The notes under the pieces are model-generated. The model was not told the DNA's origin. It ran no database searches and saw only the letters and a program-made list of their open reading frames with translations. The translations under genes were made by a program, and so were the position numbers. From Butyricicoccus sp. OM04-18BH (GTDB taxonomy: Bacteria; Bacillota; Clostridia; Oscillospirales; Butyricicoccaceae), in contig NZ_QULN01000004.1 of assembly GCF_003481705.1 (NCBI RefSeq), positions 138,905 through 202,904 of the forward strand: a DNA stretch of 64,000 nt. The letters are read 5' to 3'. Shown in pieces: positions 9,296 to 63,394 of the stretch. Every line of letters starts with the position of its first letter. Position 1 is the first letter of the stretch.

Positions 9296-10153
9296 TTGAA
9301 AGGTCTAATCTTAGCCGCAGGCAAAGGCACGCGCCTTTACCCGATGACAAAACCGATGAGCAAGCCGTTGCTTCCGGTTTACGATAAGCCTATGATTTAT
9401 TACCCGCTTGCAATTCTCATGCAAGCGGGCATTTCCGATGTCATGGTGATCGTTCCGCCGAACGAGACGGATACATTCCGTGCGCTGCTCGGCGACGGAA
9501 GTCAGTTCGGCATTCATATCTGCTATGCAGAACAGCCTGTCGCGCGTGGTATTGCGGACGCACTGCTCATCGGCCGCGAGTTCGTGGGCGATGACTCGGT
9601 ATGCCTTGTGTTGGGCGATAACATTTTCCACAGCGATACGCTGCGTGAAGTGCTCTGTAAGGGCGCACAGCAGCAGAACGGTGCAACGGTGTTCGGCTAC
9701 TGGGTTGAAAATTCGCGGCCGTTCGGTGTGGTAGAGTTTGACGAGGATGGACGGGCTATTTCGATTGAAGAGAAGCCACGCCACCCGAAGAGCAATTACA
9801 TAATTCCCGGTATTTATTTTTACGATAACCAGGCAATGGAGATTGCGGCAAATCTCACGCCGTCGCAGCGCGGCGAACTGGAAATCACAGACGTAAATCT
9901 GGAGTATTTACGCCGGGATCAATTGCAGGTGCTCCCGCTCGAGCGGGACGTCGTGTGGCTGGATGCCGGTACAGCAGACAGCCTGATGGACGCTGGACAG
10001 ACCATTCGAAATATCCAGGCTGAGACCGGACGCTATGTTGGCTGCCTGGAAGAGCTGGCCTTTAACCAAGGCTGGCTGACAGAAGAGCAGGTACACGAAG
10101 CCGGACAAGAGCTCGGCATGACACTCTATGGACAGTACTTGCAGTGCTTATAA
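9296..10153 (+). CDS. rfbA: Glucose-1-phosphate thymidylyltransferase, copy 1
   Basis: 285 residues, the usual length of RfbA/RmlA, which makes dTDP-glucose from dTTP and glucose-1-phosphate. The nucleotide-binding motif GKGTRLYPMT is at 9-18, and SKPLLPVYDKPMIYYPL and GDNIFH are conserved. The start is TTG, preceded by GGAGATGAAG; the second copy at 20917 uses ATG. The two proteins differ at about eight of 285 positions. No rfbB, rfbC or rfbD is present in the window, so later dTDP-sugar steps must be encoded elsewhere. Confidence 0.95.
   Translation: MKGLILAAGKGTRLYPMTKPMSKPLLPVYDKPMIYYPLAILMQAGISDVMVIVPPNETDTFRALLGDGSQFGIHICYAEQPVARGIADALLIGREFVGDDSVCLVLGDNIFHSDTLREVLCKGAQQQNGATVFGYWVENSRPFGVVEFDEDGRAISIEEKPRHPKSNYIIPGIYFYDNQAMEIAANLTPSQRGELEITDVNLEYLRRDQLQVLPLERDVVWLDAGTADSLMDAGQTIRNIQAETGRYVGCLEELAFNQGWLTEEQVHEAGQELGMTLYGQYLQCL
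9299..10153 (+). repeat. Direct repeat, left copy (rfbA coding sequence)
   Basis: The coding part of rfbA copy 1 forms an 855-base direct repeat with 20920-21774. Identity is high and ends sharply at the gene borders. The two copies bracket 10.8 kb of polysaccharide genes. Confidence 0.9.
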
Positions 10154-16529: not shown

Positions 16530-17936
16530 ATGGATAAAATACAATATTTAAATTATATTAAAGACAAATATAAAATCCAACCAATGGTAAGAAATATCTT
16601 CATTATAGGAACACCTAGCCATGGTAATCTTGGCGATCATGCAATTTGGTATGCAACCTGGAAACTTTTGCGAGAAATGTATGCAACAGCTAATATTGTC
16701 GATATTCTGATTGAAGATTTTTTTGCAGAAATTGACGCGATATATGAATTGACCCAGGATCAGGATCTCATAATTTTGCAGGGCGGCGGTAATTTAGGAA
16801 ATTGCTATATGGACGATGAGATGATTAGAAGATACGTTCTTTTGCGATTTCAGAAAAATCAGATTATTCTGTTTCCTCAGACGGTATATTTCACTGATGA
16901 TAAAAAGGGAAAAGAAGAATTAAAGAAAAGTATTATGATTTATAATTCTCATCCCAACTTAACATTGATGGGGCGAGACCATGTGTCGACTTGTTTTTTG
17001 AAAGAACATTTTAATGCGAGTATATACGAAGCGTTTGATGTTGTATTAACAATGAGCGCTAAAAGTGAACAGTCACGCAGAGGAGCATTAATTTGTCTCA
17101 GAAATGATTCTGAATCGTCTTTGCCTGATCCTCGAAGAAAAGAGATCATATCTCGCATAGAGAGGATTTGTCCTGAATTACGGATTACAGACACAATGGA
17201 TGAGTCGTTTGCTTGGCGAGAGGAACGAGAAGAACGAGTTTTGAAGAAAATACAAGAATTTCAGATGGCTCAAATTGTGATAACAGATCGTTTGCATGGC
17301 ATGATTTTTTCAGCAATTACGGGGACTCCATGTATTGTGCTGAATAATAATAACAGCAAAGTTAAAAACTATTATGAAAAATTGAGAAATTTGAAATTTA
17401 TCCAATTCATAGATGACACTTCATCATTAGAGAGAGATTTTAAATCGTTATCTAAAACCAAGGAAAACATTTTTGATTCTAATAGCTACAAAGAACAGAT
17501 AAAAAATATTCTGAAGTTAATAGAAGGTAAGAAGAAAACAGAACAACCCATGAATACTTTCGTGGATATTGCAATGGAAACTGCGTCATATGATGAGAAA
17601 TACTGGTTTGAAATGAGGCATTGGTTTAAGAAAACTCAAAAGGATTTCAAACAGTTAGAGCACTGGCATACGCAGTTGAAAAATGATTATGAGAATGAAC
17701 AGACGTCTGTAGATCAAGCTCATGATCAACTAAAAATCGCATATCAAAAGTATGCAGAGCTAGAAATGTGGCATACAAGATTAAAACAAGACCTGCAAGA
17801 GGCACAATCGAAACAAGTTGAGCTGTACAGTATTATTCAGGACTATCAAAAAAAGTATAAAGAGTTGGAAATTTGGCATAACCAGCTAAAGTTAGCATAT
17901 GAGGATGTTAAAGAAAAATTAGAACGAAGGAGATAA
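16530..17936 (+). CDS. Polysaccharide pyruvyltransferase family protein with coiled-coil tail
   Basis: 468 residues. Residues 20-330 match the PF04230 family: GTPSHGNLGDHAIWYATW, LQGGGNLGNCY, and ITDRLHGMIFSAITGTPCIV. Members such as CsaB and WcaK add pyruvyl ketals to surface glycans from phosphoenolpyruvate. Residues 375-468 are a predicted coiled coil in which LExWHxxLK recurs three times (LEHWHTQLK, LEMWHTRLK, LEIWHNQLK), an unusual addition. If it works as CsaB does, it could create the pyruvylated polymer that SLH domains bind, and an SLH protein lies 5 kb downstream. Confidence 0.75.
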   Translation: MDKIQYLNYIKDKYKIQPMVRNIFIIGTPSHGNLGDHAIWYATWKLLREMYATANIVDILIEDFFAEIDAIYELTQDQDLIILQGGGNLGNCYMDDEMIRRYVLLRFQKNQIILFPQTVYFTDDKKGKEELKKSIMIYNSHPNLTLMGRDHVSTCFLKEHFNASIYEAFDVVLTMSAKSEQSRRGALICLRNDSESSLPDPRRKEIISRIERICPELRITDTMDESFAWREEREERVLKKIQEFQMAQIVITDRLHGMIFSAITGTPCIVLNNNNSKVKNYYEKLRNLKFIQFIDDTSSLERDFKSLSKTKENIFDSNSYKEQIKNILKLIEGKKKTEQPMNTFVDIAMETASYDEKYWFEMRHWFKKTQKDFKQLEHWHTQLKNDYENEQTSVDQAHDQLKIAYQKYAELEMWHTRLKQDLQEAQSKQVELYSIIQDYQKKYKELEIWHNQLKLAYEDVKEKLERRR

Positions 17937-20916: not shown

Positions 20917-21774
20917 ATGAAAGGTCTAATCTTAGCCGCAGGCAAAGGCACGCGCCTTTACCCGATGACAAAACCGATGAGCAAGCCGTTGCTCCCGGTT
21001 TACGACAAGCCCATGATTTACTACCCGCTTGCAATTCTTATGCAAGCGGGCATTTCGGATGTCATGGTGATCGTGCCACCGAACGAAACGGATACCTTCC
21101 GCGCACTGCTCGGCAATGGAAGTCAGTTTGGCATTCAGATCTGCTATGCAGAACAGCCTGTCACGCGTGGTATTGCGGACGCACTGCTCATCGGCCGCGA
21201 GTTCGTGAGAGACGACTCGGTATGCCTTGTGCTCGGCGATAACATCTTCCACAGCGACACGCTGGCGGAGGTTCTGCGTAAGGGCGCGCAGCAGCAGAAC
21301 GGTGCAACGGTGTTCGGCTACTGGGTCGAAAATCCGCGGCCGTTCGGCGTGGTAGAGTTTGACGAGGATGGACGGGCTATTTCGATTGAGGAGAAACCGC
21401 GTCATCCGAAGAGCAACTACATAATCCCCGGCATTTACTTTTATGACAACCAGGCGATGGAAATTGCGGCAAACCTTACACCATCGCAGCGCGGCGAACT
21501 GGAAATCACAGACGTAAATCTGGAATATCTGCGCCGTGACCAGTTGCAGGTGCTCCCGCTCGAGCGGGACGTCGTGTGGCTGGACGCTGGTACAGCAGAC
21601 AGCCTGATGGACGCCGGACAGACTATTCGAACCATTCAAGCCGAGACCGGACGCTATGTTGGCTGCCTGGAAGAGCTGGCCTTTAACCAAGGCTGGCTGA
21701 CAGAAGAGCAGGTACACGAAGCCGGACAAGAGCTCGGAATGACGCTTTATGGACAGTACTTGCAGTGCTTATAA
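20917..21774 (+). CDS. rfbA: Glucose-1-phosphate thymidylyltransferase, copy 2
   Basis: 285 residues, almost the same as the copy at 9296 (differences include D/N, H/Q, A/T, G/R, R/A, C/R, S/P and N/T). It begins with ATG, unlike the TTG of copy 1. Similarity at the DNA level starts with the second codon and ends at the stop codon; flanks differ. It is the last gene of the polysaccharide locus, 94 bases before a strong terminator. The enzyme makes dTDP-glucose. Confidence 0.95.
   Translation: MKGLILAAGKGTRLYPMTKPMSKPLLPVYDKPMIYYPLAILMQAGISDVMVIVPPNETDTFRALLGNGSQFGIQICYAEQPVTRGIADALLIGREFVRDDSVCLVLGDNIFHSDTLAEVLRKGAQQQNGATVFGYWVENPRPFGVVEFDEDGRAISIEEKPRHPKSNYIIPGIYFYDNQAMEIAANLTPSQRGELEITDVNLEYLRRDQLQVLPLERDVVWLDAGTADSLMDAGQTIRTIQAETGRYVGCLEELAFNQGWLTEEQVHEAGQELGMTLYGQYLQCL
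20920..21774 (+). repeat. Direct repeat, right copy (rfbA coding sequence)
   Basis: Partner of the repeat at 9299-10153, same orientation. Recombination between them would delete galE, the glycosyltransferases, the pyruvyltransferase-like gene and gtrBA as a circle. Confidence 0.9.
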
Positions 21775-22299: not shown

Positions 22300-22328
22300 T
22301 TGCTAAATACAGGAAGAGATGCTATACT
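22300..22328 (+). promoter_or_regulatory. Promoter for the riboswitch-controlled SLH gene
   Basis: TTGCTA (22300-22305), 17 bases, TATACT (22323-22328), giving a start near 22335 and about 345 nt of leader. A second -10-like TATAAT at 22280-22285 lacks a clear -35. Confidence 0.65.
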
Positions 22329-22381
22329 AAGGATATAAAACGAGGTGCAAAAAATTGTGTTGATGCACAGAAATGCACCCT

Positions 22382-22492
22382 GCTGCAAAATTTAAAAGCC
22401 TGGCAAACCTGTTGAAAAGCAGGGACGCAAAGCCATATGGGTCTAAGGGCGCCTTCGGGCGGCTAAGGCAGCCGGTTGCAATTTGGAGTCGT
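22382..22492 (+). promoter_or_regulatory. c-di-GMP-I (GEMM-I) riboswitch
   Basis: The aptamer core is clear: GGCAAACC (22402-22409), a hairpin CCTGTT-GAAA-AGCAGG with the GNRA tetraloop, GGGACGCAAAGCC (22422-22434), GGTCTAAGG, a second hairpin with a UUCG tetraloop (GCC-TTCG-GGC, 22451-22460) and CTAAGGCAGCCGG as the 3' strand. This agrees with the GEMM-I consensus, including the tetraloop-receptor arrangement. It lies in the 5' leader of the SLH-domain protein gene. The last part of P1 (AATTTG, 22480-22485) is shared with a downstream hairpin, which suggests switching by transcription termination. Confidence 0.93.
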
Positions 22493-22510
22493 ACTCTAAA
22501 TTTTATTAAA
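22480..22510 (+). terminator. Hairpin of the riboswitch expression platform
   Basis: AATTTGGAGT (22480-22489) pairs with ACTCTAAATT (22493-22502), one G-U pair, then TTATTAAA. Its left arm is also the presumed 3' strand of aptamer P1, so ligand binding should prevent it. This would make c-di-GMP an activator; the T-run is weak, so the sign of control is inference. Confidence 0.5.
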
Positions 22511-22678
22511 GTGCCCTGCTTTGTCCTTTGGATGACTATAAGCATGGGCATTTATCTATTTGTGACAAATTTATGCTCCGATACTGTCAGACTAGATCGT
22601 GAGGAAGGCGAAACTCGAGGATGTCGCTCTGAAATAGCGGCAAAAACAGTGACTTCAGTAAAATGGAGGTTGAGTGAA

Positions 22679-25186
22679 ATGAAAAAAAGATTATTGGCAA
22701 GCGTGCTCTCTCTCGCTATGGTTGCAACAATGATGCCGGCGGCATTGGCGGATGATGAGGGTAATGAGCCAGCAGGCGGCGAAAATAGCAACAAACCTAA
22801 TTTCGCTATCAATTCGGCTGATGCCTTGAGTGTTGCAATCGCTGGCGCTAAGGGCGATGATTATACGATTGCACTGGATACCGATATCACGAGTGCCGTT
22901 TCAATTCCGAAGGATACAAGTATTGTCTTGGATTTGAATGGTCATAAGCTGACCAATACAGAGGGTAAAGATACCATCACCGTTGCAAAGAACGCTACAT
23001 TGACTATTACGGGTACAGGTACGGTAGATAATATTTCGCACGGTAAAGCAGCTATTTATAATATGGGTACCGCTACACTGAAAAATGGCGTGTTTGAACG
23101 ATCTCAAGAAGCGGGTAAGGATGCCAATGATAATGGTGGCAACAGCTACTATACGTTGCTGAACCATGGCGTTATGACTGTGCAAGAGGATGTTACCGTT
23201 AATAATAAGGGTGGCCATTCTAGTTTATTTGATAATGGGTATTTTTCTTGGAAGTCGAAAGACGGTATTGATAATCCTACTCTGACGATTGAAGGCGGCA
23301 CATTTAATGGCGGCTTAAACACCATCAAAAATGATGATGATGCAATTCTGAACATTGCAGGCGGTGAATTCATCAACTATACGCAGGCAGCATTCCAGAA
23401 CCATGGTTCTGCTACGGTCACGGGTGGTAAGTTCGAAGCAAGTTCTGTATATTCCATTTATAACTGTGGCTGTGATCCAGAGCATGATCTGGGAAAGCTG
23501 GACATCTCTGACGGCACGTTCAACGGTCAGCTTGCTGTTGTAGGTGGCAACAGTGATGTTAATATCACTGGCGGTACGTTCAACGGTACAATTTATAAGA
23601 ATGCTGCTGATAAACTGTCGATCTCCGGTGGTACATTCAGTACTGACGTTTCTAAGTACTGTGTTGATGGCAAAACGGCTCTGAAGCAGAACAATGGTAC
23701 ATTTGTTGTTGGAGAGCTGAAAAAGAACGAGAATGTTGTTGTTGCCGAAGCTGACAAGAAGGGCGATACGCAGGCTGCTGTAAATGATAGTATTACAGAT
23801 AAAGGTGCTGCAACGGAAACTGGTAAGACTGTAGCTCCGACTGAAGCTATTAAAGATGACAACCCAATTGACGTAACAACTGAAGAGAATGCTATTACTG
23901 CATTGAAAAATGCAAGTATGATTACGCTTAATCCCGATGGTACGATTGTTGACAAGACGGTTACTATTGTAAAGGAAACTTATCTGGACGTTAAGGTTGA
24001 AGAGTATACGCTCGGTACAACTGAGGACACCTATAAGATTTCCATGGATATTACGCCTAAGTGCAATCTGATTGCCACTACTAACAAGGACAATCAGACT
24101 GAAGAGAATTCTGTAACGTTCTCTGAGGGTAATCTTATGAAGGTTACTGCAAAGACCAAGGTTACTGTAACTCTTCCCAGCGTATTCGCAAACAAGCTTG
24201 TATACATCAATCACGACAACAAGGAACTGTACACTGCAAAAGCTGATAAGGATGGCAGGATTACTTTCGAAACCAATGGTTTCAGCCCGTTCACCTTCAC
24301 ACTGACGAAGCCGAGCGGATTTGACAATGGTTCTTCCGGTGGTTCCTCCGGCGGCGGTTCGTCCAGCTCCTCTACCTACAAGGTAACCGTTGCGACGGTT
24401 TCCAATGGTTCTGCCAAGGCTTCCACATCTACGGCTGCCAAGGACGCGACCGTAACCGTAACCCTGTCCCCGGACAAGGGCTACAAGCTTGATAAGATCA
24501 CGGTAACCGATGCTTCCGGCAAGGAAATCGCGACTACAAAGAAGAGCGATACCTCCTACACGTTCACCATGCCGGCATCCGCAGTTACCGTAAAGGTTGC
24601 TTATGTCAAGGATGATGCAGCGGTTGTAGAGCCGACCACCGGCTTCAACGATGTTGCCGACAAGGACTGGTTCGCTGACGCTGTTAAGTATGTTGCCGAC
24701 AAGGGCATGATGAACGGCACGAGCAAGACCACCTTCGGCCCGAACGACAGCACCACGCGCGGTATGATCGTAACCGTTCTGTACCGTCTGGAGAACGAGC
24801 CGAGCGCTGCTGCTGCATCGTTCACTGACGTCGTTTCTGGCCAGTACTACACGGACGCAGTCGCGTGGGCGAATGCGAACGGCATCGTTACCGGCTACGG
24901 CAATGGCAAGTTCGGTCCGAACGATGTTGTAACCCGCGAGCAGCTCGCGGCGATCCTGTATCGCTACGCGCAGTACAAGAAGTACGATGTTTCTGTCGGC
25001 GAGGATACCAATATCCTCAGTTATGCCGATGCGCAGAGCGTTTCTGCATATGCAATCCCGGCTATGCAGTGGGCATGCGGCGCAGGTATCGTAAACGGCG
25101 CGAACGGCAAGCTCAATCCGCAGAACAACGCAACCCGTGCGGAAGTTGCCGCAATCCTCATGCGTTTTTGTGAGAATGTTAAGTAA
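22679..25186 (+). CDS. Secreted cell-wall protein with beta-helix-like repeats and three SLH domains
   Basis: 835 residues from the ATG at 22679, with GGAGGT eight bases upstream; the frame is open farther back through the riboswitch but that part is not coding. Signal peptide 1-24 (KRLLASVLSLAMVATMMPAA). Residues 45-310 have repeated GGTFNG-type turns, like right-handed beta-helix adhesins. A Gly/Ser linker lies at 550-566, then a beta-sandwich repeat 567-645 (TFTMPASAVTVKVAYV). SLH domains follow at about 655-705, 715-768 and 778-835 (FNDVADKDWFADAVKYVADK first). SLH domains hold proteins to pyruvylated wall polymers. Leader control by c-di-GMP suggests a role in adhesion or sessile growth. 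Confidence 0.88.
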   Translation: MKKRLLASVLSLAMVATMMPAALADDEGNEPAGGENSNKPNFAINSADALSVAIAGAKGDDYTIALDTDITSAVSIPKDTSIVLDLNGHKLTNTEGKDTITVAKNATLTITGTGTVDNISHGKAAIYNMGTATLKNGVFERSQEAGKDANDNGGNSYYTLLNHGVMTVQEDVTVNNKGGHSSLFDNGYFSWKSKDGIDNPTLTIEGGTFNGGLNTIKNDDDAILNIAGGEFINYTQAAFQNHGSATVTGGKFEASSVYSIYNCGCDPEHDLGKLDISDGTFNGQLAVVGGNSDVNITGGTFNGTIYKNAADKLSISGGTFSTDVSKYCVDGKTALKQNNGTFVVGELKKNENVVVAEADKKGDTQAAVNDSITDKGAATETGKTVAPTEAIKDDNPIDVTTEENAITALKNASMITLNPDGTIVDKTVTIVKETYLDVKVEEYTLGTTEDTYKISMDITPKCNLIATTNKDNQTEENSVTFSEGNLMKVTAKTKVTVTLPSVFANKLVYINHDNKELYTAKADKDGRITFETNGFSPFTFTLTKPSGFDNGSSGGSSGGGSSSSSTYKVTVATVSNGSAKASTSTAAKDATVTVTLSPDKGYKLDKITVTDASGKEIATTKKSDTSYTFTMPASAVTVKVAYVKDDAAVVEPTTGFNDVADKDWFADAVKYVADKGMMNGTSKTTFGPNDSTTRGMIVTVLYRLENEPSAAAASFTDVVSGQYYTDAVAWANANGIVTGYGNGKFGPNDVVTREQLAAILYRYAQYKKYDVSVGEDTNILSYADAQSVSAYAIPAMQWACGAGIVNGANGKLNPQNNATRAEVAAILMRFCENVK

Positions 25187-41428: not shown

Positions 41429-42099
41429 TTTTACCCTCAGCAGAGGGGAGACCCTCTGCCGATACAGCGGCGCAGCCGGTGGAGGCGACTTGACGCTCAA
41501 AGTGAGCGTGTGCAATGGCCGCCTTCGGCGGCCCGAGGAAGGCCGTACCCACGGCCGGGGGCAAGAGGGGAAAGACAACCAAGGTTTTCTTTCCCCTCTT
41601 AACTCCCCAAACTTTCCTTAGGACGCGACTCCCTTCGGTCGCGCGTCTAAATGCGAGGGGCCCACAGGGGCGTTTGCTGCTCCAAGAGCACATCCTTGAT
41701 CGAAGCGGAGCTTTTCGCAGCGCAAATCAAGCGCCCTGCACCGTCTGGCCGCGCACTGTTATGCGCGGCGGTTTACGCAAAGTAAATTCAGGGTCTAACA
41801 GCCTCCCAAAAGCTGCCCGACGCACGGAACCGAGCCCCCGTAACCCCCGTTTCGCCGCGCAACCGAAGGGCGTCGCGGCGCAAAGGAGGGTTTGGGGGAG
41901 TCAAGAGGGGGAAAGGGAACCATTTGGTGCCCTTGCCCCCTCTTGCCCTTCGCCGTGGGCACGGCGTACCCCCGCCGCCGGGCGGCGGCAATGCACAGCC
42001 ATGTCATGGCGAATATCCCCCGGCCCGGGAGGGCCTGTCTCGCCTGCGGCGGCAAGCCGCCGGAACGGCGGAACCGCTCACCCTCTGCTGAGGGTAAAA
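41429..42099 (+). repeat. MITE-like intergenic repeat, copy A
   Basis: It is bounded by perfect 19-base terminal inverted repeats, TTTTACCCTCAGCAGAGGG (41429-41447) and its complement (42081-42099). The core (about 41620-41890) matches copies B and C closely, e.g. GCGAGGGGCCCACAGGGGCG and GAAGCGGAGCTTTTCGCAGC. GC-rich with several hairpins (GGGGCAAGAGGGGAAAG.../...CTTTCCCCTC). It has no credible coding frame or transposase. Its left end resembles copy C and its right end copy B, as if recombined. The rest of 41323-42600 apart from the speD leader holds nothing else I can name. Confidence 0.8.
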
Positions 42100-42235: not shown

Positions 42236-42590
42236 ACTCGGAGAGGCAAAGCCTTTACCAGCAGAATTTCTTTGACCGCCCTTTCCTGCCGGAAAGGTGC
42301 TAAGGCCATACGGACAGCCGGGTCAAATGCCGAACATGGCAACTTTGTTGCCTTATTGAATTTTTATAAGTTGGCTGACTAAAAGCCGTGTGCCGCGGGC
42401 GCATACACTTGTGAAACAATCAATAAGAGTAGTAAAAGTAACGATTCTTGCTATATAGACTCTTTCCTCTTCCACAGACACGAAAAACAGTGCGGTCACT
42501 CCGCGCGAGAAGAGAATGATTGATTTTCCCCAAGGTGAAAGCGTGCCCGGTGCACTCCCTTCCATCCGGGGATTTTTTTATTATTTTTGT
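42236..42590 (+). promoter_or_regulatory. Long structured leader of the speD operon with terminator, candidate riboswitch
   Basis: The leader contains several hairpins, including GGCAAC-TTT-GTTGCC (42338-42352), GCC-GAACAT-GGC (42329-42340) and CTTAT/ATAAG (42352-42370). It ends in CCCGG...CCGGG (42546-42570) plus ATTTTTTT, an intrinsic terminator about 20 nt before the speD start. A promoter, a long leader and a terminator directly ahead of the gene indicate attenuation. I could not match a known riboswitch class. Confidence 0.55.
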
Positions 42591-42601
42591 GAGGATATGA
42601 T

Positions 42602-43366
42602 ATGGAGAACAAGCTCAAACTCTACGGCTTTAACAACCTGACCAAGGCGCTGTCCTTTAATATTTACGATGTCTGCTACGCAAAGACCGAGCGAGAACAG
42701 CGCGACTACATCAAGTACATCGATCAGCAGTACAACTCCGAGCGACTGACCGGCATCATGGAAAAGCTGACCGAGATGATCGGCGCACATGTGCTGCACA
42801 TCTCCAAGCAGGACTACGATCCGCAGGGCGCTTCCGTCACCTTCCTGATCGCGGAGGAGCATATGAAGCCGGCGCTCGAGCCGGATACCATCGTGGCGCA
42901 CCTCGACAAGAGCCATGTCACCGTGCACACCTACCCCGAGTACCATCCGGATACCTGCCTTGCGACCTTCCGCGTGGACATCGACGTGGCCACCTGCGGC
43001 GAGATCACGCCGCTGTCCACCCTCGACTACCTCATCGGCTCGTTCGATTCGGACATTATCACGATGGACTACCGCGTGCGCGGCTTTACGCGCGATATTG
43101 AGGGCAAAAAGCTGTTTATGGACCACAATATGACGTCCATTCAGGACTTTATCGACCCCGCGACGCTCGACCGCTACGATGCCTACGACATCAACGTGTA
43201 TCAGGCCAACCTGTTCCACACCCGTATGCTGCTCAAGGAGATCGACCTTCAGAACTACCTGTTCAACACCGACATCTACGAGCTGCCGCCCAAGACCCGT
43301 CTCAAGATCCACTCCGACCTCCGCCGTGAGATGATCGAGATCTTTTCGGGCAAAAACATCTACTGA
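42602..43366 (+). CDS. speD: S-adenosylmethionine decarboxylase proenzyme
   Basis: 254 residues, the larger Escherichia coli-type Spe[20 protein letters not shown] contains the cleavage site between Lys103 and Ser104; Ser104 becomes the pyruvoyl group. It yields decarboxylated AdoMet, the aminopropyl donor for SpeE. TGAGGA precedes the ATG. It is first of the operon speD-speA-speE-dehydrogenase-nspC, behind a long leader with a terminator. A structured repeat lies between it and the next gene. Confidence 0.95.
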
Positions 43367-43369
43367 TTT

Positions 43370-43550
43370 CGATTGAAAATACATTTTCAATCGAGAAAGA
43401 CAAACCGAACGATGTTCGGATTTGTCTCACAATAAAATTTGCGCGTCGCTGCGCGGCACACAAATTTTATTCCTTGTATAAAAACCGTGATACATGCTCC
43501 CGGTTTTTATCAATCTGCTGCGCAGATTGTATTTCATGCGCGCTTCGCGC
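43370..43550 (+). repeat. Six-hairpin intergenic repeat, copy 1
   Basis: Hairpins: CGATTGAAAAT/ATTTTCAATCG (43370-43393); GACAAA-C-CGAAC/GTTCG-GA-TTTGTC (43399-43426); AATAAAATTT/AAATTTTATT (43431-43471); ATAAAAACCG/CGGTTTTTAT with a 13-base loop (43478-43510); CAATCTGC/GCAGATTG (43511-43529); GCGCG/CGCGC (43538-43550). The fourth is identical in copy 2 at 60507-60544; the others keep their pairing with different bases. It lies between speD and speA, so it may also affect expression of the downstream genes. Confidence 0.8.
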
Positions 43551-43592
43551 GAAAGCGCAGCATATCATTCTCTGCCGAAAGAAGGCATTTCT

Positions 43593-45050
43593 ATGGATCA
43601 ATCCCGTGCGCCCATCATGGAGGCGCTCGAAAACTTCAAGGATATGCGCATTGTGCCGTTCGACGTTCCCGGACACAAGCGCGGACGCGGCTCACCGGAG
43701 CTGACAAAGTTCCTCGGCCAGCAGTGCATGACCGTGGACGTCAACTCGATGAAGCCGCTCGACAATCTGTGCCACCCAACGAGCGTCATCCGCGAGGCGG
43801 AGGAGCTGGCGGCCGATGCGTTCGGCGCGGCGCACGCCTTCCTCATGGTCGGCGGTACGACGAGCAGCGTGCAGGCGATGATACTCTCGGTCGTGAAGCG
43901 CGGCGACGAGATCATTCTGCCGCGCAACGTGCACCGCAGCGTCATCAACGCGCTCGTGCTCACCGGCGCGATACCGGTCTATGTCAATCCGCAGATGAAC
44001 GACCGCCTGGGCATTTCGCTCGGCATGTCGGTCGCGGACGTCAAGGCCGCCATCGAGAAGCACCCGTCTGCGAAGGCGGTGCTGGTCAACAACCCGACCT
44101 ATTACGGCATCTGCTCGAACATCCGCGAGATTGTCAAACTGGCGCACGCGGCGGGCATGAAGGTGCTCGCGGACGAGGCGCACGGCACGCATTTCTACTT
44201 CGGGGAGAATATGCCGGTCTCCGCGATGGCGGCGGGCGCGGATTTGGCATCCGTTTCCATGCACAAGTCGGGCGGCTCACTCACGCAGTCGAGCTTTCTG
44301 CTGTGCGGCCCGTCGATGAACGCCGAACACGTTCGCCAGATCATCAATCTGACCCAGACGACCTCGGGTTCGTATCTGCTGATGGTCAGCCTTGACATTT
44401 CGCGCAAAAACCTTGCGCTGCACGGAAAAGAGGTTTTCCGAAAAGTCGTTGATCTCACGACCTATGCCCGCGAGGAGATCAACCAGATCGGCGACTACTA
44501 CGCCTACGGCAGCGAGCTCATCAACGGCGACACCGTGTACGATTTTGACACGACCAAGCTCGCGGTCAACACGCTCGACGTCGGCCTCGCCGGTATCGAG
44601 GTCTACGACATCCTGCGCGATTACTACGACATTCAGACCGAGTTCGGCGACCTCGGCAACCTGCTCGCCTATGTTTCGGTCGGCGACAGAGAACGCGACC
44701 TCGAACGTCTGGTATCCGCTCTAGCGGACATCCGCCGCCGCTATAAGCGCGACAAGGCGACGCTCATGCGGCAGGAGTATATCTCGCCGCAGGTGGTCGC
44801 GGGGCCGCAGGAGGCGTTCTACGCGGACAAGAAGGCCATGCCGCTCGATGAGTCGGTCGGCCGCATCTGTGCGGAGTTTGTCATGTGCTATCCGCCCGGC
44901 ATTCCGATCCTCGCGCCGGGTGAGCGTATCACCCGCGACATTCTTGATTATATCCGTTACGCCAAGGAAAAGAACTGTATGCTGCTCGGCACCGAGGACC
45001 CCGAGGTGAACAGCCTTCAGGTTATCCGCGGCGTCATCAGTCCGGAATAA
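43593..45050 (+). CDS. speA: Arginine/lysine/ornithine decarboxylase family protein
   Basis: 485 residues from the ATG at 43593 (AAGAAGG upstream). PLP fold-type I: VPFDVPGHKRGRGSPEL, VGGTTSSVQAMIL, VLADEAHGTH with Asp194, and VSMHKSGGSLTQSS with the PLP lysine at 225. The shorter gram-positive form is typical of arginine decarboxylase in Clostridia and Bacillus. Arginine is the probable substrate, giving agmatine, but no agmatinase gene lies in the window, so lysine or ornithine cannot be excluded. It stands between speD and speE in the operon. Confidence 0.85.
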   Translation: MDQSRAPIMEALENFKDMRIVPFDVPGHKRGRGSPELTKFLGQQCMTVDVNSMKPLDNLCHPTSVIREAEELAADAFGAAHAFLMVGGTTSSVQAMILSVVKRGDEIILPRNVHRSVINALVLTGAIPVYVNPQMNDRLGISLGMSVADVKAAIEKHPSAKAVLVNNPTYYGICSNIREIVKLAHAAGMKVLADEAHGTHFYFGENMPVSAMAAGADLASVSMHKSGGSLTQSSFLLCGPSMNAEHVRQIINLTQTTSGSYLLMVSLDISRKNLALHGKEVFRKVVDLTTYAREEINQIGDYYAYGSELINGDTVYDFDTTKLAVNTLDVGLAGIEVYDILRDYYDIQTEFGDLGNLLAYVSVGDRERDLERLVSALADIRRRYKRDKATLMRQEYISPQVVAGPQEAFYADKKAMPLDESVGRICAEFVMCYPPGIPILAPGERITRDILDYIRYAKEKNCMLLGTEDPEVNSLQVIRGVISPE

Positions 45051-45066
45051 AAGGAGCGTTTTCCCT

Positions 45067-45924
45067 ATGCAACTTACTTTTACCGAAATGCACACGCCGA
45101 CGGTCGGACTTCAAATTCAGGTGGACCGTCAGCTGCATACCGAACAGAGCGACTTTCAGCGCATCGACGTCTTTGAATGCGAGGAGTTCGGCCGCTTTCT
45201 CACGCTCGACGGCTACATGATGCTGACCGAGCGGGACGAGTTCATCTACCATGAGATGATGGTGCACGTACCGCTCGCGGTGCTCGGCGAGAAGATCAAA
45301 AAGGTGCTCGTCATCGGCGGCGGCGACGGCGGCTGCGTGCGCGAGCTGTGCCGCTACAAGCACATCGAGCACATCGACCTCGTGGAGATCGACGAGCGCG
45401 TCGTCGCGGTCTGCAAGGAGTATCTGCCCGGCGTGGCGTGCTCGCTCGACGATCCGCGCGTTCATATCCTGTATCAGGACGGCCTCAAGTACATCCGCCG
45501 CATCGAGGACGAATACGACCTCATCATCATCGACTCGACCGACCCGTTCGGCCCGGGCGAGGGCCTGTTCACGATGGAGTTCTACGGCAACTGCTACAAG
45601 GCGCTCCACGAGCACGGCGTGCTGGTCAATCAGCACGAAAGCCCGTTCTACAAGGGCGATGCACTGGCGTGCCAGAGAGCGCACCGCAATATCGTCCACT
45701 CGTTCGAGCTCAGCCGCCTGTTTCAGGCGCATATCCCGACGTATCCGTCCGGCCACTGGCTGTTCGGTTTCTCGTCCCGCGGCGTGCATCCGGTGCGCGA
45801 TCTGAATCCGGACTGGTGGAATAGTCTGGGACTGGAAACTAAATATTACAATACCAATCTGCACAAGGGCGCGTTCTATCTGCCGAATTATGTGCAGAAG
45901 CTGCTTGAAAAAGTAGAGGAATAA
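45067..45924 (+). CDS. speE: Spermidine synthase (aminopropyltransferase)
   Basis: 285 residues. VLVIGGGDGGCVRELCR binds decarboxylated AdoMet, and IIIDSTDPFGPGEGLFT carries the catalytic Asp. It transfers an aminopropyl group from decarboxylated AdoMet to a diamine, normally putrescine. AAAGGAG precedes the ATG. Length and motifs are normal. It is 16 bases after speA. Confidence 0.94.
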   Translation: MQLTFTEMHTPTVGLQIQVDRQLHTEQSDFQRIDVFECEEFGRFLTLDGYMMLTERDEFIYHEMMVHVPLAVLGEKIKKVLVIGGGDGGCVRELCRYKHIEHIDLVEIDERVVAVCKEYLPGVACSLDDPRVHILYQDGLKYIRRIEDEYDLIIIDSTDPFGPGEGLFTMEFYGNCYKALHEHGVLVNQHESPFYKGDALACQRAHRNIVHSFELSRLFQAHIPTYPSGHWLFGFSSRGVHPVRDLNPDWWNSLGLETKYYNTNLHKGAFYLPNYVQKLLEKVEE

Positions 45925-45990
45925 TGTTATCCCTTTGCACATTTTATCATTTTGAACCATTTAACAGGAAACAATGAGGAGGAACTAACC

Positions 45991-47250
45991 ATGGGAAGAG
46001 CATTGATCATCGGCTGCGGCGGCGTTGCCGGCGTTGTCATTCACAAGTGCTGCCAGAACAGCGACGTTTTCGAGGAAATTATGATCGCGTCCCGCACCAA
46101 GAGCAAGTGCGACGCCATCAAGGAGAAGCTCGACGGCACGACCGCGACCAAGATCCGCACCGCAAAGGTGGACGCGGACAACGTGGACGAGCTGTGCGCG
46201 CTCATCGACGAGTACAAGCCGGACATCGTCATGAATATCGCTCTGCCGTATCAGGATCTGACCATCATGGACGCCTGCCTCAAGTGCGGCGTCAACTACA
46301 TGGATACCGCCAACTACGAGCCGGAGGACACCGACGATCCGGAGTGGCGCGCCATTTACGAGAAGCGCTGCAAGGACGAGGGCTTTACCGCGTACTTTGA
46401 CTACTCCTGGCAGTGGGCGTACAAGAAAAAGTTTGAGGAGGCCGGTCTGACCGCGCTGCTCGGCTCCGGCTTCGACCCGGGCGTAACGCAGGCGTACTGC
46501 GCTTACGCACAGAAGCATCTGTTCGATGAAATCGACACCATCGACATTCTGGACTGCAACGGCGGCGACCACGGCTATCCGTTTGCGACCAACTTCAACC
46601 CGGAGATCAACCTGCGCGAGGTTTCCGCGCCGGGTTCGTACTGGGAGAACGGCCACTGGGTCGAGATTCCGGCAATGAGCATCAAGCGTGAGTACGACTT
46701 CGATCAGGTCGGCCACAAGGATATGTACCTGCTCCATCACGAGGAGATCGAGTCGCTCGCGAAGAACATCCCGGGCGTCAAGCGCATCCGCTTCTTCATG
46801 ACCTTCGGTCAGTCCTACCTGACCCACATGAAGTGCCTTGAGAACGTCGGCATGCTGTCCACCACCCCGATCGAGTTCGAGGGCCATCAGATCGTGCCGA
46901 TCCAGTTCCTCAAGGCGCTGCTGCCCGACCCGGCGACCCTCGGTCCGCGCACCAAGGGCAAGACCAACATCGGCTGCATCTTCACCGGCAAGAAGGACGG
47001 CAAGGAAAAGACCGCCTACATTTACAACGTCTGCGACCACGAGGAATGCTACCGCGAGGTCGGCTCGCAGGCCATCAGCTACACGACCGGCGTTCCGGCG
47101 ATGATCGGCGCGGCGATGCTGCTGACCGGCAAGTGGAACAAGCCGGGCGTGTACACCGTCGAGGAGTTCGATCCCGATCCGTACATGGAGGCGCTGAACA
47201 AGTGGGGCCTGCCGTGGCAGATCGACGACAAGCCGGTGCTGGTGGACTGA
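45991..47250 (+). CDS. Carboxyspermidine dehydrogenase-type saccharopine dehydrogenase
   Basis: 419 residues from the ATG at 45991, set by GAGGAGGAA. The N-terminal Rossmann motif is GCGGVAGVVIHKC (residues 8-20). The family joins aspartate semialdehyde with putrescine (or diaminopropane) by reductive amination, giving carboxyspermidine. VNYMDTANYEPEDTDD and LLGSGFDPGVTQAYCAYAQK agree with the CASDH branch. The next gene, nspC, starts one base after its stop and encodes the matching decarboxylase, which settles the assignment. Lysine-pathway saccharopine dehydrogenase is the main alternative. Confidence 0.88.
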   Translation: MGRALIIGCGGVAGVVIHKCCQNSDVFEEIMIASRTKSKCDAIKEKLDGTTATKIRTAKVDADNVDELCALIDEYKPDIVMNIALPYQDLTIMDACLKCGVNYMDTANYEPEDTDDPEWRAIYEKRCKDEGFTAYFDYSWQWAYKKKFEEAGLTALLGSGFDPGVTQAYCAYAQKHLFDEIDTIDILDCNGGDHGYPFATNFNPEINLREVSAPGSYWENGHWVEIPAMSIKREYDFDQVGHKDMYLLHHEEIESLAKNIPGVKRIRFFMTFGQSYLTHMKCLENVGMLSTTPIEFEGHQIVPIQFLKALLPDPATLGPRTKGKTNIGCIFTGKKDGKEKTAYIYNVCDHEECYREVGSQAISYTTGVPAMIGAAMLLTGKWNKPGVYTVEEFDPDPYMEALNKWGLPWQIDDKPVLVD

Positions 47251-47251
47251 T

Positions 47252-48382
47252 ATGAGATTTACCGATCTTCCGACTCCCTGCTTTATCATCGACGAAAACC
47301 GCCTTGTGCAGAACCTTGCGGTGCTGCGCGACGTCGCGCGGCGCAGCGGCGCGAAGATCCTGCTCGCGCAGAAGGCGTTTTCCATGTTTTCGACCTATCC
47401 GCTGCTGCGCGAATACCTCGCCGGAACGACCGCGTCCGGTCTGTTCGAGGCGCGGCTGGGTCACGAGGAATTCGGCGGCGAGACGCATGTCTATTCGCCC
47501 GCGTACACGCCGGACGAGTTCCATGAAATCCTGAATTATGCCGACCACATCGTGTTCAACTCGTTCACGCAGTGGAAAAAGTACGGCAATCTGGCGCGCG
47601 TGGCCGGAAAGAGCTGCGGTCTGCGTCTCAATCCGGAGTGCTCGACGCAGCCGAGCGACCACGCCATCTATGACCCGTGCGGCCCGACCTCGCGTCTGGG
47701 CATCACCGAGGCGAACTTTCAGCCTGACCTGCTCGACGGCATCGAGGGTTTCCATTTCCACACGCTGTGCGAGCAGAACGCGGACGATCTCGTGCGCACG
47801 GTCGCGGCGTTTGAAATGCGCTTCGGCCGCTACATGGAGGGCATGAAGTGGCTCAATCTCGGCGGCGGCCATCACATCACCCGTGCGGACTACGATGTGG
47901 ACGCGCTCGTCAACTGCATCATCTATCTGCGCGACAAGTACAAGGTGCAGATCTATCTCGAGCCGGGCGAGGCGGTCGTGCTGAACGCCGGCTATCTGGT
48001 CTCGACCGTGCTCGAGACCATGAAAAACCGCAAGGATATCGCCATTCTCGATACCTCGGCGGCGTGCCATATGCCGGACGTACTCGAAATGCCGTACCGT
48101 CCGCCGGTCATGCGTGCGGACGAGCCGGGGTGCAAGGCGTTCGATTATCTGCTGACCGGCCGCACCTGTCTTGCGGGCGACGTCATCGGCGAGTATTCGT
48201 TCGATGTGCCGCTGATGGCAGGCGAGCAGGTGGTTTTCGAGGATATGGCGCTGTACACCATGGTCAAGACCAATACGTTCAACGGTATGCCTCTGCCGCT
48301 GATCGCCGTCCGCCGTGCGGATGGCACGGACGAAGTCGTCCGCATGTTCAGCTATGAGGATTTCAAAAACCGACTGTCGTAA
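47252..48382 (+). CDS. nspC: Carboxynorspermidine/carboxyspermidine decarboxylase
   Basis: 376 residues, PLP fold-type III (alanine racemase-like barrel). The PLP lysine is Lys41 in ILLAQKAFSMF, and LNLGGGHHITRADYDVDAL, HFHTLCEQNADD and LEPGEAVVLNAGYL are typical of NspC. It decarboxylates the product of the upstream dehydrogenase to spermidine. Last gene of the operon, ended by a strong terminator. Confidence 0.92.
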   Translation: MRFTDLPTPCFIIDENRLVQNLAVLRDVARRSGAKILLAQKAFSMFSTYPLLREYLAGTTASGLFEARLGHEEFGGETHVYSPAYTPDEFHEILNYADHIVFNSFTQWKKYGNLARVAGKSCGLRLNPECSTQPSDHAIYDPCGPTSRLGITEANFQPDLLDGIEGFHFHTLCEQNADDLVRTVAAFEMRFGRYMEGMKWLNLGGGHHITRADYDVDALVNCIIYLRDKYKVQIYLEPGEAVVLNAGYLVSTVLETMKNRKDIAILDTSAACHMPDVLEMPYRPPVMRADEPGCKAFDYLLTGRTCLAGDVIGEYSFDVPLMAGEQVVFEDMALYTMVKTNTFNGMPLPLIAVRRADGTDEVVRMFSYEDFKNRLS

Positions 48383-48465: not shown

Positions 48466-49106
48466 TTCCGCCGTTCCGGCGGCTTGCCGCCGCAGGCGAG
48501 ATTGGCTGCCGATGGGCAGGCTGGGCATTGCCGCCGTCTGGCGGCGGAGGTGCCGGTGTTCACCGGCGGGGTACGCCGTGCCCACGGCGAGGGGCAAAAG
48601 GGGGCAAGGGCACCGTATGGTTCCCTTGCCCCCTCTTGACTCCCCCAAACCCTCCTTTGCGCCGCGACTCCCTTCGGTCGCGCAGCGAAACGGGGGAAAC
48701 GGGGGCTCGGTTCCGTGCGTCGGGCAGATTTTGGGACGCTGTAAGGCCCTGAGGTCAGCTTGCGTGGTTTGCCGCGCATAACAGTGCGCGGCCATCCGGT
48801 GCAGAGCGGCAGCTCTCCGCTGCGAAAAGCTCCGCTTCGATCAAGGGTGTACTCTTGGAGCACCAAACGCCCCTGTGGGCCCCTCGCATTTAGACGCGCG
48901 ACCGCAGGGAGTCGCGTCCAAAGGAAGGTAAGGGGAGTCAAGAGGGGACAGGAAACCATTGGTGTCCTGTCCCCTTTTGCCCCTGCCGGTGGGCACGGCG
49001 TCTCCGCCGCCGAAGGCGGCCACTTCCCACGCCATGTCATGGCGAACATCCCTCGTCCCGGGAGGGCCTATCTCGCCTGCGGCGGCAAGCCGCCGGAACG
49101 GCGGAA
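48466..49106 (-). repeat. MITE-like intergenic repeat, copy B (inverted relative to A and C)
   Basis: 37-base perfect terminal inverted repeats, 48466-48502 and 49070-49106, beginning TTCCGCCGTTCCGGCGG. The core carries the complement of the copy A core (CGCCCCTGTGGGCCCCTCGC near 48867-48887). Hairpin arms such as GGCAAGGG/CCCTTGCC lie inside each end. The region 48425-49143 contains no credible gene; open frames in it follow the repeat and recur in the other copies. Confidence 0.85.
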
Positions 49107-49143
49107 AATTTCGCGCCTGCCTGCGGTAAGGCAGAAAAGACGT

Positions 49144-62675: not shown

Positions 62676-62703
62676 GCCCGCCCGAGGGCAGGCGTCCCTT
62701 TTG

Positions 62704-63362
62704 CTTTACCGTCGGATGACGGCAGACCTTCCGCCGATACAGCGGCTCGCCGCTGGAGGCGAGAATGGCCCTCCCGGGCCGGGGATGTTCGCCATGGCAT
62801 GGCGTGGGGATTGCCGCCGCCCGGCGGCGGGGGCAAAAGGGGCAGGGACACCAAGGTTTCCCTGCCCCTCTTGACTCCCCAACCTTTCCTGGGGACGCGA
62901 CTCCCTTCGGTCGCGCGTCTAAAAGCGAGGGGCCCACAGGGACGTCTGGTGCTCCAAGGCACAATCCTTGATTGAAGCGGAGCTTTTCGCAGCGGAACGC
63001 TGTCGTTCTGCACAGAATGGCCGCGCACTGTTATGCGCGGCGCCTTACGCAAGGGAAATTCAGGGCAGTAAAGCGTCCAAAAATCTGCCCGACGCACGGA
63101 ACCGAGCTCCCGTACCCCGTTTAGCCGAGCATCTTCGATGCGACGGCTCAAAGGAAGGTCAGGGGAGTCAAGAGGGGACAGGAAACCATGTTTGGTGTCC
63201 TGTCCCCTTTTGCCCTCCGCCGTGGGCACGGCGTCTCCGCCGCCGAAGGCGGCAATGCATACGCCATGTCATAGCGAATACCCTCTGCCCGGGAGAGCCG
63301 TTTTCGCCTCCAGCGGCGAGCCGCTGTATCGGCGGAACCGCCTGCCGTCAGCAGACGGTTAA
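62704..63362 (+). repeat. MITE-like intergenic repeat, copy C
   Basis: A 32-base perfect inverted pair, 62731-62762 and 63304-63335 (starting CCGCCGATACAGCGG), extends outward with some mismatches to 62704 and 63362. The core 62890-63140 matches copy A in the same orientation (GCGAGGGGCCCACAGGG). The outer stems differ from A but still pair (CCGTC/GACGG in place of CCCTC/GAGGG). The region 62676-63394 has no other feature. Confidence 0.85.
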
Positions 63363-63394
63363 GAGAAAAAAACCTCTGCTGAGGGCATAAGAAA

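Follow-up and report, generated by a model that had tools for sequence, protein, structure and literature searches.

Does the riboswitch that precedes a surface-protein gene of Butyricicoccus sp. OM04-18BH turn that gene on or off? The riboswitch belongs to class I of the cyclic di-GMP (c-di-GMP) riboswitches and lies in a 64,000-nt stretch of contig NZ_QULN01000004.1, which we refer to as the window. The gene downstream encodes an 835-aa protein with S-layer homology (SLH) domains. An earlier note on this DNA had placed a c-di-GMP riboswitch before an SLH-anchored beta-helix protein, which our analysis bears out, and had taken it for an ON switch, which it does not. We slightly favour transcription attenuation in the OFF direction, as a tentative reading that is held somewhat short of an even chance. 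The features on which the argument depends are given below, where D denotes a terminator score of the d'Aubenton-Carafa type (cut-off 0).

22392-22483, + strand: c-di-GMP-I (GEMM-I) aptamer, Rfam RF01051, cmscan 64.0 bits against a gathering score of 35, E 3.3e-10
22408-22423, + strand: aptamer helix P2, with a GAAA tetraloop (GNRA) at 22414-22417
22431-22477, + strand: aptamer helix P3
22416-22428, + strand: aptamer strand made of the P2 3' side and the core CGC, proposed antiterminator partner of the T2 left arm
22480-22502, + strand: T1, an AU-rich 10-bp hairpin followed by UUAUUAAAG, -7.2 kcal/mol, D -21 to -40, weak terminator candidate
22511-22522, + strand: T2 left arm GUGCCCUGCUUU, which pairs with 22416-22428 or within T2
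22512-22550, + strand: T2, main terminator candidate, a strong hairpin of about -16 kcal/mol (-15.4 to -18.9 depending on boundary) with UUUAUCUAUUUG after it
22665-22669, + strand: Shine-Dalgarno (SD) sequence GGAGG, 9 nt before the ATG, read from the sequence
22679-25186, + strand: SLH-anchored surface protein, 835 aa (Pfam, sequence match in PDB, AlphaFold2, fold matches)

The aptamer is almost certainly real. It is the only c-di-GMP-I aptamer that cmscan found in the window, and no other Rfam family scored above cut-off in the leader. Compared to RF01051, both bases are present for 21 model pairs, of which 20 are standard, and the residues at the contact positions of the model are G22402 (G20), A22429 (A47) and C22479 (C92). 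In Vc2 these three residues contact c-di-GMP, with the equivalence as given for Bc1 (PMC11218506; this and the other cited works are drawn on in excerpt throughout). The description of the aptamer as well formed in the earlier note is thus supported by score, pairing and contact positions, and we infer that the predicted aptamer binds its ligand. GEMM-I aptamers of the cyclic GMP-AMP (cGAMP) type have an A at the position of G20. A cGAMP reading was dropped because the window has G22402 there, not A. Bc2 is reported to carry an A at this position and still to respond to c-di-GMP (PMC4933901).

That the aptamer controls the SLH gene is predicted with high confidence. The protein ends in an SLH triad of three domains at residues 656-835 (Pfam), for which the PDB sequence match is Sap SLH, preceded by a Flg_new_2 domain at residues 567-644 (Pfam). 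A parallel beta-helix was modelled at residues about 38-348, followed by beta domains (AlphaFold2, mean predicted local distance difference test 82.5; fold matches). The protein starts with a putative signal peptide. The triad would hold the protein on the wall with the beta-helix displayed, in agreement with the wall-bound, beta-helix-like protein proposed earlier. The modelled fold makes a role in adhesion putative: phage tailspikes and lyases scored alike in the beta-helix fold search, so the fold shows no function. We also considered an upstream protein start, given a frame that is open from 22373, and disfavoured it because the SD sequence, the signal peptide and relatives point to 22679. 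In one sister genome (G021, L104) such a frame does extend across the aptamer, which is not the case for the near-identical L105 of G022. SLH domains bind pyruvylated wall polysaccharide (6bt4). Less than 5 kb upstream of the SLH gene, at 16530-17936 on the + strand, is a gene for a polysaccharide pyruvyl transferase (PF04230) whose long tail is coiled-coil-like.

The evidence for the OFF direction comes from T2, a hairpin stronger than T1 that was absent from the earlier note. Its left arm GUGCCCUGCUUU is complementary to AAAGCAGGG-A-CGC at 22416-22428 over 12 bp with one bulge (-19.8 kcal/mol), and since this is the P2 strand of the aptamer the layout resembles that of an OFF switch. Without ligand, the nascent RNA would pair 22416-22428 with 22511-22522, which would block T2 and let the polymerase read into the SLH gene. 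With c-di-GMP, the aptamer would lock the P2 strand and free the left arm, T2 would form and transcription would stop. Both termination at T2 and the direction of the switch are what we infer from this layout. A helix as good was reached by 17 of 2000 shuffled arms and by 4 of 200 dinucleotide shuffles of the platform, by which we mean 22480-22565. Further shuffle controls gave 3/150 with a hand-set terminator and 4/100 with automatic boundaries. For an RNA ending at 22535, the antiterminator helix had a probability of 0.47 with the aptamer free and 0.00 with the aptamer locked. Our long-duplex test of aptamer against platform was uninformative (496 to 757 of 1000 shuffles over four ranges) because it counts gapped duplexes, and it was replaced by 14-nt windows. 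The spacer before T2 was tried as an antiterminator of T2 and rejected (151/200 shuffles).

The platform as a whole folds better than 499 of 500 shuffles, and T2 is its best local fold, with 1 of 300 shuffles as good. T2 is the best terminator-like hairpin of this riboswitch and starts 33 nt after the ligand-binding C22479. T1 starts directly after this residue and overlaps the P1 3' strand, 9 nt ahead of T2. Each of the two hairpins in the platform has a U-rich tail and scores under the terminator cut-off. A perfect stem of the length of T1 arises in 82 of 2000 platform shuffles. Scored in the same way, the terminators of relatives had D above -5 in 8 of 10 cases, with the other two at -18 and -40. 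In the OFF model T1 would be a weak accessory hairpin.

We then asked how the same layout fares in relatives. Terminators set by hand numbered 19, 14 of them lying behind the ligand-binding C, and automatic boundaries were applied to 93 riboswitches. Four of the 14 hand-set cases score for the OFF layout: the window (3/150), flgB (0/150), a prepilin peptidase gene (1/150) and an SLH gene of G005 (7/150). A related layout, in which the strand with the ligand-binding C is compared to the terminator, was also evaluated on 14 and scores in three: SLH genes of G008 (G008c, 4/200) and G021 (G021b, 7/200), and G057 (0/200); the other eleven gave 22 to 171 of 200. With automatic boundaries, 11 of the 58 tested terminators pass at 5%, where about 3 are expected, the window being borderline at 4/100. 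We regard this comparative signal as suggestive but fragile. The leader of a metagenomic relative (P0007, seen as a database translation, with 787 of 835 protein residues identical) has no residue change in the 73 codons of 22373-22591, which span the aptamer, T1 and T2, compared to three in the next 29 codons and one at the start codon (p 0.006); this is a single leader seen as a translation, in which synonymous changes are invisible. In P0007 (94% identical) the start-ATG codon of the SLH gene reads Ile, and the leader frame is open from just before the aptamer.

Several results weigh against the OFF direction. Shuffling the aptamer rather than the platform equals the 12-bp helix in 17 of 200 cases. 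At equilibrium the probability of T2 is 1.00 with the aptamer locked or free, and that of the antiterminator is 0.00 once the T2 right arm is out, so the helix can act only during transcription and the OFF mechanism needs kinetic control. T2 has D of -16 to -37, below the cut-off of 0, and its tail is interrupted. The other ten hand-set terminators gave 12 to 137 of 150, and five of them precede SLH genes (G008a 12/150, G021b 28/150, G019b 29/150, G019a 125/150, G008c 137/150). Automatic boundaries fail flgB (8/100), the prepilin peptidase (10/100), G005b (11/100), G021b (23/100) and G008c (72/100). Since the hits change in this way, the support from relatives varies with where the arm boundaries are placed. 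The best terminator includes the ligand-binding C, as in an ON layout, in 11 of 93 riboswitches, one of them before an SLH gene (G163, from the order sample described below), although not in the window. In C. difficile, the transcript of one class I locus rose with c-di-GMP (PMC6200980).

The rival reading closest to the earlier note is that c-di-GMP stabilises P1 and thereby occupies the left arm of T1, which serves as the 3' strand of P1; T1 would be blocked and the gene read. We consider it doubtful. T1 does begin at the base that follows the ligand-binding C and shares sequence with the P1 3' strand, a closing stem P1 of 7 bp with 22382-22389 is possible (-6.1 kcal/mol), and forcing it brings the T1 probability to 0. 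Such ON switches upstream of surface proteins exist in Bc2 before cap (PMC4933901), Bc3-5 are likewise reported as ON (PMC4759541), and the 11 ON layouts counted above speak for the same direction. However, the pairing of the T1 arm in P1 is at chance level, being equalled in 929 of 5000 trials with shuffled strands and in 654 of 5000 with random window segments. Across 33 family sequences the P1 duplex averages -4.26 compared to -3.77 when mispaired (sd 0.32), a slight margin. Even when the aptamer is locked, T1 is 5.5 kcal/mol more favourable than P1 (RNA ending at 22505). T1 is also a poor terminator by its D, it excludes the ligand-binding C and P3, unlike the terminators of Bc3-5, and a polymerase that passes T1 still meets T2. 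Of the earlier statement that the downstream hairpin shares its left arm with P1, the overlap therefore stands and the pairing is indistinguishable from chance. The statement that ligand prevents termination is not upheld, with T1 weak, P1 sharing at chance and the T2 layout resembling an OFF switch. The template proposed for single-round transcription, 22335-22520, ends inside T2 and would miss it, so the direction would be undecidable with that template.

A riboswitch that does not switch seems distinctly unlikely. Here T2 would terminate strongly at all times, downstream of a weak T1 that is sensitive to ligand, and the gene would stay low at any c-di-GMP level. The order of a weak T1 and then a strong T2, with T2 at probability 1.00 in every modelled state, is in line with this, and Bc1 has the same order and no c-di-GMP response (PMC11218506). 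T2 fails the standard terminator score, however, the aptamer contacts are kept, and the leader from aptamer to T2 is conserved in P0007 while the remainder drifts. Less likely still would be one aptamer that serves two hairpins with opposite logic, c-di-GMP removing T1 via P1 and licensing T2 via the locked P2. This has little probability; if true, a single riboswitch would act as a band-pass switch, with the SLH protein produced only at intermediate c-di-GMP levels or only when elongation kinetics allow it. The reading that the aptamer is a chance match or has decayed, leaving the gene unaffected, can be given hardly any weight: P1 is not demonstrably better than chance, but the 64-bit match (E 3.3e-10) has conserved contacts, the leader is conserved, and the arrangement recurs in sister species. 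Any direction other than OFF, ON or no response is similarly improbable. If the OFF reading is true, the SLH protein would belong to the low-c-di-GMP state rather than to sessile life, where the earlier note had placed it.

The link between riboswitch and SLH protein was followed through relatives. A window protein that resembles carboxynorspermidine synthase is 94-95% identical in Agathobaculum records (L001, L003, L004), including A. massiliense. Among 87 family genomes, 17 have a c-di-GMP-I riboswitch that scores above cut-off, and 18 have one if E values up to 0.001 are allowed (strict filters). c-di-GMP enzymes were assessed in these family relatives of the window organism: GGDEF proteins occur in 18 of 18 riboswitch-bearing genomes versus 42 of 69 others. 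In the genus set (25 genomes) seven have a c-di-GMP-I riboswitch, and six riboswitches in four genomes (G005, G008, G019, G021) precede SLH proteins (Pfam). The earlier claim of a tie between c-di-GMP and a surface protein in this lineage is thus extended to several genomes. Other family targets (Pfam) include transglutaminase-like, CotH, M60 peptidase, VTC-domain protein, flagellar rod and prepilin-peptidase genes. In total an SLH protein lies downstream of 10 of 93 riboswitches (86 with an open reading frame, ORF), of which eight come from the 33 family riboswitches, a count that takes in the window and a tandem pair sharing one gene, and two from the 60 of the order sample. For the family, 32 of 48 riboswitch rows were analysed, with Pfam on 22 downstream ORFs. 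At the order level 104 of 394 genomes had a match, and the sample consists of 60 rows from the top among the matches listed, leaving out family genomes already used, second tandem members and one contig-end row. For this sample the sole test was for SLH: a home-made SLH profile was applied to the longest ORF whose start lies within 600 nt.

The window SLH protein itself was matched in 11 of the 87 family genomes, at best with 44% identity (G019), and its close relatives come from the protein database only, not from genomes. Neither in G019 nor in G057 was a riboswitch found on the contig of the SLH-protein relative, and no relatives were found in viral contigs. A search with the leader gave matches in 9 of the 87 family genomes, all short pieces and mainly aptamer. 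Among the matches listed, no published link between a c-di-GMP riboswitch and an SLH protein in Agathobaculum relatives was found. Agathobaculum relatives are gut bacteria. The present locus ties c-di-GMP to SLH-anchored beta-helix proteins in them, and since the arrangement recurs in the genus it offers a working hypothesis on surface tuning in these commensals.

A sub-type of c-di-GMP-I seen in this survey has CGAAAGGAG right after the ligand-binding CC (G019c, G034a, G083b and G081a). Three of the four, G019c, G034a and G083b, were scanned with Pfam and precede a transglutaminase-like gene. The outer P1 strand of G019c, like that of G034a, is able to pair with the SD sequence, which suggests translational OFF control.

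Two further features lie ahead of the aptamer.

22300-22328, + strand: promoter-like site TTGCTA-17-TATACT with an extended -10 (TG); weak, with 3 sites in the region versus 1.9 in shuffles
22344-22379, + strand: 5' hairpin GGUGCA...UGCACC, which precedes the aptamer; -14.3 kcal/mol (22335-22384), 1 of 500 shuffles at least as stable

The promoter-like site ending at 22328 is only suggestive, and transcription would start near 22335. The end of the leader (22555-22678) was considered as further structured RNA and rejected, as 298 of 500 shuffles fold equally well.

Elsewhere in the window, an SpF59_sRNA match (Rfam; ldcC RNA, described from Streptococcus) of 66.2 bits lies at 42273-42333, + strand, before a gene at 42602 that is presumably speD-like. 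There follows at 43494-48382 a run of genes that resemble decarboxylase, spermidine-synthase and carboxynorspermidine genes. The whole is apparently a polyamine operon, in a lineage distant from Streptococcus. Three copies of a dispersed element, about 570-680 bp long, are present (41430-42098 +, 48466-49142 -, 62693-63363 -) that are 76-84% alike, each with internal inverted repeats. An rfbA-like gene occurs twice, at 9297-10153 and 20918-21774 (+ strand, 92% identical), flanking glycosyltransferase genes; the sister genome G019 has one whole rfbA-like copy and one that is seemingly rearranged.

The locus can be compared to several known systems. In Bacillus thuringiensis, Bc2 is a c-di-GMP-I riboswitch before the collagen adhesion protein gene cap and acts as an ON switch (PMC4933901). 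The window shares with it the class I aptamer, a wall-anchored surface protein and, as predicted here, transcription attenuation. It differs in its SLH anchor and its two hairpins, whereas Bc2 is shown to be ON and has one terminator in the description. Bc1 of B. thuringiensis places a weak terminator ahead of a strong one and is reported to show no c-di-GMP response (PMC11218506). Its platform resembles ours in being long and in the order of its hairpins, weak before strong, although Bc1 precedes a chemotaxis gene and has T1 and T2 28 bp apart, compared to 9 nt and a T2 arm complementary to the P2 strand in the window. Bc3-5 are reported as ON, and their predicted terminator incorporates the ligand-binding C together with the P1 strand and a portion of P3 (PMC4759541); in contrast, T1 and T2 of the window start one and 33 bases after C22479, respectively. 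In C. difficile, functional class I riboswitches, flgB and others, are reported as OFF (PMC6366702, PMC6200980), and one repressed class I locus codes for a putative adhesin (PMC6200980), so it does not follow that a riboswitch before an adhesin must be ON. Those riboswitches are, like ours, class I aptamers in Clostridia; the OFF action and the putative adhesin locus are those of C. difficile, and unlike in the window none is described before an SLH protein in the excerpts of PMC6366702 and PMC6200980. Finally, the SLH motif is a riboswitch candidate upstream of SLH-domain genes, also in Clostridia, for which its authors suggest c-di-GMP as a possible ligand (PMC6429828). It has in common with our leader a structured RNA before an SLH gene, and it is an RNA motif separate from c-di-GMP-I.

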